From Lewinella sp. IMCC34183 (lineage in GTDB: Bacteria; Bacteroidota; Bacteroidia; Chitinophagales; Saprospiraceae), in the NCBI RefSeq assembly GCF_003390915.1, contig NZ_QMEM01000001.1, forward strand, positions 992,001 to 1,056,000: a stretch of 64,000 nt of DNA, read 5' to 3'. Below are positions 26,008 to 28,092 of the stretch, one piece after another; the first letter of the stretch is position 1; each line of letters opens with the position of its first letter. The position numbers and the translations under genes are program-made. Below the pieces are notes generated by a model. The model ran no database searches, was not told the DNA's origin, and saw only the letters and a list, made by a program, of their open reading frames with translations.

Positions 26008-27204
<1,197 letters not shown>

Positions 27205-27315
27205 CTTAGGATAACCTATTTAAAAATTAAAAAATGGTGCTTATTCAGGGTGCCGACCGCAACCCCGGCCGCCCCTATCTCCGCTTCCGAAGAACACGGA
27301 GAAGTATTACCCTTG

Positions 27316-27387
<72 letters not shown>

Positions 27388-27419
27388 AACACGGTTGATG
27401 TGTAATAAAGTTGCGGACC

Positions 27420-27433
27420 ACCACCGTTGTGGT
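27420..27433 (-). other. Short hairpin ACCAC-AACG-GTGGT after the interrupted tRNA copy
   Basis: A 5-bp stem with an AACG loop lies 10 bp after the interrupted tRNA-Gly-like unit. The same element with compensating base changes follows the intact tRNA-Gly at 27610-27627, and the flanking sequence is also similar, which shows that both units arose by duplication. It may be an RNA-processing signal; that is inference. Confidence 0.6.
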
Positions 27434-27443
27434 ACTCCGTGGA

Positions 27444-27597
27444 GCGGAAGACGAGATGAGCTTCGCTGCTCTCCCTTCGGTCGGGGCGAACCCGCGACCC
27501 TCAGTTTAATGCGTTTTGTAGGTTATGCGGTTTTAGGGGCGGGGGCCCCAAAAACTAGCCCACAAATAAACCGCTCTACCAACTGAGCTACTCCGTT
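27444..27597 (-). pseudogene. Interrupted tRNA-Gly-like unit with two hairpin-forming insertions
   Basis: This region aligns with the neighbouring tRNA-Gly: GCGGAAGACGAGAT, GAACCCGCGACCCTCAG and CTCTACCAACTGAGCTA are shared on the plus strand. Two extra segments break it: 30 bp at 27458-27487 in the T-loop instead of 2 bp, and 68 bp at 27505-27572 instead of 14 bp in the anticodon arm. The second segment is an imperfect inverted repeat (27514-27540 against 27545-27567) with a four-base loop, so the anticodon arm would become a long hairpin. The D-arm is intact, but the 5' acceptor (AACGGAG) no longer pairs fully with the 3' side (CTTCCGC), and no anticodon can be assigned. I call it a pseudogene; a tRNA-like structured RNA is an alternative. 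Confidence 0.75.
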
Positions 27598-27609
27598 ATT
27601 CATTGCGAA

Positions 27610-27627
27610 AATCCACCGTTGTGGATT
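27610..27627 (-). other. Short hairpin AATCCAC-AACG-GTGGATT after tRNA-Gly
   Basis: A 7-bp stem with an AACG loop lies 6 bp after the tRNA-Gly 3' end inside the polycistronic tRNA transcript. It matches the hairpin at 27420-27433 in loop and position, with paired changes in the stem. A role in tRNA 3' processing is possible but not shown. Confidence 0.6.
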
Positions 27628-27633
27628 CCGTGG

Positions 27634-27706
27634 AGCGGAAGACGAGATTCGAACCCGCGACCCTCAGCTTGGAAGGCTGATGCTCTACCAACTGAGCTAC
27701 TTCCGC
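27634..27706 (-). tRNA. tRNA-Gly(TCC)
   Basis: Complete cloverleaf on the minus strand: acceptor GCGGAAG/CTTCCGC, D-arm TAGCTCAGTTGGTAGAGC, anticodon stem TCAGC/GCTGA around CTTCCAA (anticodon TCC), and T-arm CGCGGGTTCGAATCTCG. No CCA is encoded. It is the parent or sister of the interrupted unit directly downstream in the transcript. Confidence 0.96.
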
Positions 27707-27729
27707 AAAAAAATAAAATTTCAAAGGTG

Positions 27730-27811
27730 TGGGGGTGGTAGGATTCGAACCTACTCAGCCGAAACACTGGATTTACAGTCCAGCCCACCTCTCCAACTGT
27801 GGCGCACCCCC
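27730..27811 (-). tRNA. tRNA-Tyr(GTA)
   Basis: Class II tRNA of 82 nt on the minus strand. The acceptor GGGGGTG pairs with CACCCCC, followed by discriminator A, an identity element for Tyr. The anticodon stem CTGGA/TCCAG encloses CTGTAAA (anticodon GTA), and the variable arm is long. The T-arm reads GTAGGTTCGAATCCTAC. Confidence 0.95.
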
Positions 27812-27846
27812 CTATTCTGGTTGTCAAAGATCTCCTGGCCTGCTAG

Positions 27847-27919
27847 AGCCGATGGACGGACTCGAACCGCCGACCAGCTGATTACAAATCAGCTGCTCTA
27901 CCAACTGAGCTACACCGGC
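27847..27919 (-). tRNA. tRNA-Thr(TGT)
   Basis: Cloverleaf on the minus strand with acceptor GCCGGTG/CATCGGC, D-arm TAGCTCAGTTGGTAGAGC, anticodon stem GCTGA/TCAGC around TTTGTAA (anticodon TGT) and T-arm GGCGGTTCGAGTCCGTC. It is the first gene of the tRNA-tuf operon, about 135 nt downstream of the predicted transcription start. Confidence 0.95.
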
Positions 27920-28061: not shown

Positions 28062-28092
28062 CAAAGGTAAGTCGTTTGATACAATTGACAAA
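28062..28092 (-). promoter_or_regulatory. Bacteroidota-type promoter of the tRNA-tuf operon
   Basis: On the minus strand TTTG (28092-28089) is followed after exactly 19 bp by TACCTTTG (28069-28062). This matches the -33/-7 consensus TTTG-N19-TAnnTTTG of the primary sigma factor of Bacteroidota. Transcription would start near 28055 and read through the tRNAs into tuf and perhaps secE-nusG. Confidence 0.85.

Follow-up and report, generated by a model that had tools for sequence, protein, structure and literature searches.

The window, as the whole stretch of 64,000 nucleotides analysed here is called, contains five tRNA genes according to ARAGORN and to Rfam at gathering score, four of which belong to a cluster with the order Thr(TGT)-Tyr-Gly-[unit]-Thr(GGT)-tuf. 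The unit in question, placed between tRNA-Gly(TCC) and tRNA-Thr(GGT) and excluded from these five calls, is a segment of 154 nt (27444-27597, minus strand), which sequence comparison identifies as a second copy of tRNA-Gly(TCC) carrying two inserts; the preliminary description of a tRNA-Gly-like unit with two inserts beside an intact tRNA-Gly is therefore correct. In the direction of reading, the features of the locus are as follows.

28062-28091, minus strand: promoter-like TTG-N19-TANNTTTG, upstream of the cluster (pattern match)
27846-27919, minus strand: tRNA-Thr(TGT), first gene of the cluster (ARAGORN)
27729-27811, minus strand: tRNA-Tyr (ARAGORN)
27631-27706, minus strand: intact tRNA-Gly(TCC), presumed parent copy (ARAGORN, Rfam)
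27608-27629, minus strand: spacer hairpin with an AACG loop, after tRNA-Gly
27444-27597, minus strand: whole unit, derived from tRNA-Gly(TCC), with two inserts (comparison with tRNA-Gly; no tRNA call by ARAGORN or Rfam)
27573-27597, minus strand: degenerate 5' acceptor strand and D-arm, 25 nt; five of seven pairs with the 3' strand remain
27508-27572, minus strand: 65-nt insert at the site of the anticodon arm (unit alignments)
27511-27571, minus strand: outer copy of a palindromic element, GTTTA ... ACGC (read from the alignment by eye)
27527-27559, minus strand: probable inner, degenerate copy of the element, in the loop of the outer copy (17.3 bits, E 0.2)
27487-27507, minus strand: anticodon 3' strand, variable region and 5' half of the T-stem, tRNA-derived, 21 nt
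27458-27486, minus strand: 29-nt T-loop insert, containing CGACCGAAGGGAG
27444-27457, minus strand: 3' half of the T-stem and acceptor 3' strand, tRNA-derived, 14 nt
27419-27434, minus strand: spacer hairpin of like kind, after the unit
27315-27387, minus strand: tRNA-Thr(GGT), next gene of the cluster (ARAGORN)
26008-27204, minus strand: downstream open frame, tuf (EF-Tu), named by eye

The open frame at 26008-27204, recognised by eye, is presumably tuf, coding for EF-Tu, and the motif read from 28091 to 28062 is a putative promoter, matching the Bacteroidota-type consensus. Compared with the intact gene, the unit retains the D-arm, the anticodon 3' strand with the variable region, both halves of the T-stem and the acceptor 3' strand; the insert sizes first reported, 68 and 30 bp, were close to the exact lengths of 65 and 29 nt. 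Since spacer hairpins of like kind follow both tRNA-Gly and the unit, the comparison suggests that the flank was probably duplicated along with the tRNA-Gly copy.

Neither ARAGORN nor Rfam at gathering score calls the unit a tRNA; a cloverleaf with a 7-nt anticodon loop is absent, the anticodon arm being replaced, and the pairs left in the acceptor stem, counted in the four genomes G000 (the window genome), G007 (Neolewinella xylanilytica DSM 29526), G001 (Lewinella sp. IMCC34191) and G004, are 5, 3, 4 and 7 of 7, respectively. The predicted fold of 27440-27600 is more stable than all 200 of 200 dinucleotide shuffles (z -3.47); of the single-sequence folds, those of the window unit, of G001 and of G004 are strong (z -3.0 to -3.5), and those of G007 (z -1.07), G020 (z -0.83) and G014 (z -1.90) ordinary. 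A permissive Rfam search of 27380-27640 gave four matches, all far under the gathering scores and none of them to tRNA, and a known RNA family was rejected for the unit, sub-threshold matches alone being found. The Y RNA-like YrlA (Rfam RF02553) has a tRNA-like module; its match to the unit lies below threshold (15.2 bits against a gathering score of 69, E 1.4), and homology is not credible. A phage origin was also considered and rejected, as no match was found in 50,697 phage records, nor in viral contigs by two patterns. A search for other copies of the unit in the window's genome returned two further matches, both short.

The same build recurs in relatives. A search at DNA level (E <=1e-8) through the 21 genomes analysed from the genus recovers the unit in the window genome, in N. 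xylanilytica and in Lewinella sp. IMCC34191, in all of which it follows tRNA-Gly; its presence at the same place in the two relatives rules out the assembly artefact against which the preliminary description had cautioned. Inspection of the gaps between cluster tRNAs adds three genomes in which the unit precedes tRNA-Gly, namely G004 (two tandem copies), G014 and G020, so that units of the same build are present in 6/21 genomes; all of those found adjoin tRNA-Gly within the tRNA-tuf cluster, and the adjoining tRNA-Gly is intact in the five clusters that lie on one contig and, across two contigs, in G001. The latter genome has three tandem units with a period of 160 bp, and its cluster is divided between two contigs with about 127 bp in common at their ends (by eye), so that a fourth match, found at the end of the other contig, probably represents the first copy a second time. 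With a covariance model built from nine units, the units score 73.5-107.3 bits and the best matches of the other genus genomes 39.8-44.7 bits, at, or consistent with, ordinary tRNA-Gly; 14 of the 21 genomes have such a tRNA-Gly-level match without a unit, and G010, which is 55% complete, has no match to the model. Among 199 genomes of the family (4 of the genus), searched with stricter filters that weak or divergent units could escape, nothing besides the window's unit exceeds 44.7 bits, the tRNA-Gly score. The unit is dispensable, since G018, the sister of G004, lacks it. In G014 (L029) the gap between tRNA-Gly and tRNA-Thr(GGT) contains, after the intact gene, an extra tRNA-Gly 3' half with a T-loop insert, and the same gap is also enlarged in G020 (L027); both may represent older units that have decayed.

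The insert at the anticodon arm belongs to a dispersed palindrome, GCTTA-N5-RGGGYCCCNNCCCC-N5-ACGC, and positions 20-53 of the unit model match many other sites, chiefly in G006 and G012. The exact pattern is matched 49 times in 9/21 genus genomes (23 in G012, 13 in G006, three each in G009 and G001, two each in G004 and G020, and one each in G014, G013 and G000), the reversed-pattern control giving 0 matches; seven of the 49 lie in units, one of these (G001:C45) being probably a repeat of another. No exact match occurs in 377 other genomes of the family, which together with the 21 of the genus make up 398 genomes drawn evenly from a larger group, so that only the same nine match. The alignment of 27 distinct copies, five of them from units, describes an 11-pair hairpin with strong covariation between the arms, the copies having been chosen from pattern matches and units, so that the search pattern itself accounts in part for the constant letters; the stem of the element counts nine pairs, with 92.6% of cells paired, and its core 33 bp. 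A model of the element finds copies, more degenerate ones included, in 12/21 genomes at E <=0.01 (34 matches in G012 and 19 in G006), the six unit-bearing genomes having 0 to 3 non-unit copies each at this threshold; 3 of 11 extra model sites that were read carry ACTTA...ACGT, in which both sides of the closing pair have changed in concert. The hairpin of the G004 unit is identical to a dispersed copy of G009 at 32/33 positions. Some REPs have a dedicated Y1 transposase (RAYT), whose gene the repeats flank; in the genus Y1_Tnp is present in 20/21 genomes, in numbers that do not track those of the element (two in G012, two in G006 and seven in G005). In 40 loci no copy was found inside another tRNA gene, the one tRNA seen, a tRNA-Ala, being about 1.2 kb off, in a search by ARAGORN that would miss a badly broken tRNA.

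Of the earlier proposal that small palindromic elements had hit the duplicate, the part concerning the anticodon insert thus stands, this insert being a member of a dispersed family of the genus; an origin of the T-loop insert from a repeat is only possible. The T-loop 13-mer CGACCGA(A/C/G)GGGAG, common to the units of G004 and of G000, G001 and G007 and absent from those of G014 and G020, is matched 45 times in 12/21 genomes (seven matches in units), and its reversed control 30 times in 15 genomes; the motif being scarcely commoner than its control, a dispersed-element origin is not established. Some of the 13-mer matches lie in short tandem repeats; in the window genome, L201 (G000:C14:11300-11444) consists of five direct 33-bp repeats carrying CGACCGAAGGGAG.

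The long insert of the window unit looks like one palindrome copy nested in another, as read from the alignment: the outer copy resembles the un-nested element of G001 (GCTTATTTGTGGGGCCCCAACCCCACAAAACGC), and the inner one, GCTAG...CCGC, is weak (17.3 bits, E 0.2), although no other site of the window matches the full model better. In G007 there is no R2 match at E 0.1. Nesting occurs among dispersed copies too, 3 of the 23 copies of G012 (L153, L161, L167; outer halves by eye) lying within another copy. Many dispersed copies, in a set of 40 loci, stand in long open frames, though frames of such length can be due to chance as well. Of ten proteins scanned with Pfam, chosen from 15 listed frames, three (L151, L164 and L165: a type I restriction subunit, a transglutaminase/DUF2126 protein and an acetyltransferase/zinc-ribbon protein) have domains flanking the element in frame on both sides, five, including a histidine kinase, have a domain on one side, one has a domain ending at the edge of the element and one has no domain. 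The histidine kinase (L156) aligns to a solved kinase structure across the element site, with gaps at the site. Frames of a transposase (C55) and of a helicase-like protein (C52; by eye) harbour copies in the window genome. Similar transposase frames of three genomes contain the element at the same protein position (by eye): G000:C55:294969-295001, G013:C35:223396-223428 and G001:C36:322233-322265. Given this shared position, a transposon may have spread the palindrome.

Across units, the TTA of GCTTA, the C-rich loop and ACGCA are constant, and the hairpin arms vary by lineage (TTTGT/ACAAA, CGTCC/GGTCG, AATCT/AGATT), mostly remaining complementary. In eight distinct rows of the alignment, 95.5% of cells are paired under a rod fold, which has the D-arm paired to the variable region, and 94.9% under a tRNA-like fold; for either fold the pairing percentage, the number of cells with two-sided change and the covariation score are reached by 0/500 shuffles. 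Pairs with two-sided change and pair types are unexceptional, being reached by 210 and 309 of 500 shuffles in one alternative fold and by 63 and 289 of 500 in the second. Neither the rod fold nor the tRNA-like lower stem is free of exceptions: the former is broken at one pair in G014 and G020 and at one in G007, and in the latter one pair of the D-arm fails in the G004 units. As the arms of the units resemble different dispersed subfamilies, compensatory mutation may not account for all of the covariation, some of which could stem from separate insertions or from exchange.

A tree built from seven proteins (2,543 columns; 20 genomes of the genus plus one outgroup, with G019 represented by tuf only and G010 left out) groups G000 with G001 and G007 (support 96), G004 with G018 (100), and G014 with G020 (100), the last pair being far from the other two unit groups; this distribution is compatible either with a single ancient gain and repeated later losses or with as many as three gains or transfers. 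Among G000, G007 and G001, 270/591, 246/597 and 288/594 fourfold sites of rpoB differ (41-49%), against 11/94, 7/66 and 7/66 of the insert-derived positions and 4, 2 and 2 of 59 tRNA-derived positions of the unit, gapped positions being omitted from the unit counts, including the nested part missing in G001. The two spacers also change faster than the unit (18/81 versus 16/156, 20/83 versus 8/128 and 12/83 versus 7/129; P 0.018, 0.0003 and 0.029, uncorrected for three tests), although they hold a hairpin of their own and are not a neutral yardstick. Between lineages the contrast is weaker, with 9, 10 and 9 of 41 positions against 45-55% (P 0.005, 0.0011 and 6e-5), and between G020 and G014 it is strong (1/41 versus 301/576). 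Being slower than rpoB fourfold sites and spacers, the unit is unlikely to be in plain decay, and the word decayed in the preliminary description is not supported, as its arms also stay complementary; slow change together with complementary arms across units bears on the refuting condition then named, random decay lacking any conserved structure.

There is good support for the derivation of the unit from a tRNA-Gly duplicate that had its anticodon arm replaced by a dispersed palindrome, and a retained function is likely. The reading that we prefer, with a probability of roughly 0.6, is that of a pseudo-tRNA remodelled by a palindrome of REP/RPE-like type and retained within the tRNA-tuf transcript as a folded segment. 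Under this reading, a tandem tRNA-Gly(TCC) copy would have been duplicated inside the tRNA-tuf cluster along with the spacer hairpin at its 3' side; the palindrome of the genus would then have replaced the anticodon arm, with loss of the tRNA role, a second segment would have filled the T-loop, and another copy of the palindrome probably inserted into the loop of the earlier one in both the window species and N. xylanilytica. The unit would be co-transcribed with the cluster and, having no anticodon loop, would be unable to decode; its self-contained hairpins are presumed to have been kept because of a role in cis, that of a folded spacer or of a processing element within the precursor RNA, and the unit may also yield a stable RNA of about 150 nt. 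The transcription that the preliminary description took as certain, given a working promoter, and the new role that it offered as an alternative are likewise presumptive. The role in cis is preferred because the units lie in the cluster beside tRNA-Gly and because the letters of their loop are those of the element in general. A broader formulation, according to which a new structured RNA arose from a tRNA-Gly duplicate and a mobile palindrome, grew its stems by loop entry and nesting, and was maintained by selection in part of the genus as a component of the tRNA-EF-Tu transcript, is put forward tentatively and must be considered rather doubtful.

A history of independent insertions, compatible with the remodelled pseudo-tRNA, is possible, albeit somewhat against the odds. 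It supposes that the element prefers hairpin loops, such as the anticodon loop of tRNA-Gly and its own, and that it entered duplicates separately in G000/G001/G007, in G004 and in G014/G020; the three separate places of the units in the tree, their occurrence on both sides of tRNA-Gly, the match of their arms to different dispersed subfamilies and the entry into loops displayed by the nested copies of G012 all agree with it. Yet the units share their junctions, with AGAGC or AGCGC before the insert and CCAAG after ACGCA (TTAAA in the window unit), and the T-loop motif unites G004 with G000, G001 and G007, though it recurs elsewhere and is missing from G014 and G020.

The view that the unit is a plain pseudogene appears unlikely. 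A redundant tRNA-Gly copy would in this case be a harmless landing site for palindromes, its tandem copies renewed by unequal crossing-over and its tRNA parts corrected by gene conversion; varying tandem numbers (three in G001, two in G004), the patchy presence exemplified by G018 and the dispersed nature of the anticodon insert would then follow. Conversion by tRNA-Gly can explain the tRNA parts and not the inserts, at whose positions it cannot maintain the low divergence given above; moreover, the unit changes more slowly than the adjacent spacers, and renewal from dispersed copies is not obvious in genomes with so few of them outside the units.

A small RNA acting in trans, either through pairing of the C-rich loop with G-rich ribosome-binding sites or through titration of an EF-Tu-type tRNA-binding protein by the tRNA-like body, is improbable: the C-rich apical loop of 9/9 aligned units, the strong folds of three of them and the position upstream of tuf speak for it, but dispersed copies have the C-rich loop as well (demanded there by the search pattern), so that specificity for the units is not established. 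Removal of the inserts from the RNA to give a working, intron-bearing or rescued tRNA-Gly is scarcely credible, despite the conserved D-arm and T-stem halves and the complete acceptor stem of G004, as there is no match to any intron family of Rfam, the insert takes the place of the anticodon 5' strand and of part of the loop and does not just interrupt them, the acceptor pairs are reduced in G000, G007 and G001, and an intact tRNA-Gly adjoins the unit in all six genomes.

Two known classes of element invite comparison with the palindrome. The Rickettsia palindromic elements (RPE; Ogata et al. 2000, 2002), of 105-146 bp, are described in the review PMC2229807 as lying in frame in protein genes and also in tmRNA and in the M1 RNA of RNase P; the palindrome of the genus likewise occurs in frame in protein genes and inside an RNA gene, and is set apart by description, having a 33-bp core, Bacteroidota as hosts and a tRNA-Gly duplicate as host RNA. 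CGTC-tagged REPs, according to PMC3733652, are small stem-loops of several phyla including Bacteroidetes, partly in coding regions, with TGTC and CCTC variants of the tag. The opposite strand of our element reads GCGTC in many copies, and its nine pairs fit their stem of 8-9 bp; it differs, as far as that description extends, in having GCGT followed by any base, paired, rather than an unpaired CGTC tag, a YCCCNN loop of 6 nt (a length set by the search pattern) rather than 4-5 nt, a TAAGC end of the opposite strand rather than a CCA tail, and nested copies, the word "nested" being absent from PMC3733652. Since the defining features of CGTC-tagged REPs and the size of RPEs do not apply, the element is regarded as a new variant beside REPs and RPEs and not as a member of either. 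As for the unit, the tRNA-Other of Bacillus cereus is a tRNA-like element non-functional in translation (PMC3399842); it differs in its Trp anticodon and in flanking a pathogenicity island, palindromic inserts being unmentioned in what is available of that paper. A literature search by title and opening of the abstract found nothing describing the palindrome element or the unit.

The value of the locus lies in the possible intermediates that the genus displays side by side, from intact tRNA-Gly only, through the unit with one palindrome and that with probably nested palindromes, to tandem arrays. In its own right, the dispersed family offers a compact example of palindromes entering proteins in frame as well as the loops of other copies, and so makes the choice of hairpin loops by such elements a testable question.

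Two further observations concern neighbouring sequences. In G006 (L135, L140, L144, L146, L150 and L152) the palindrome forms part of a longer repeat, itself dispersed, whose outer arms read CCTCTCC/GGAGAGG and whose flanks are shared; this repeat is perhaps a larger miniature element. Across the genus, a hairpin with a loop of AACG type (AACG, GATG or AATG) and variable, complementary arms occurs 3' of tRNA-Gly; possibly a processing signal, it is the best stem in 15/16 sequences of the Gly-Thr gap, hand-picked from 14 genomes with the gaps of six other genus genomes left out.
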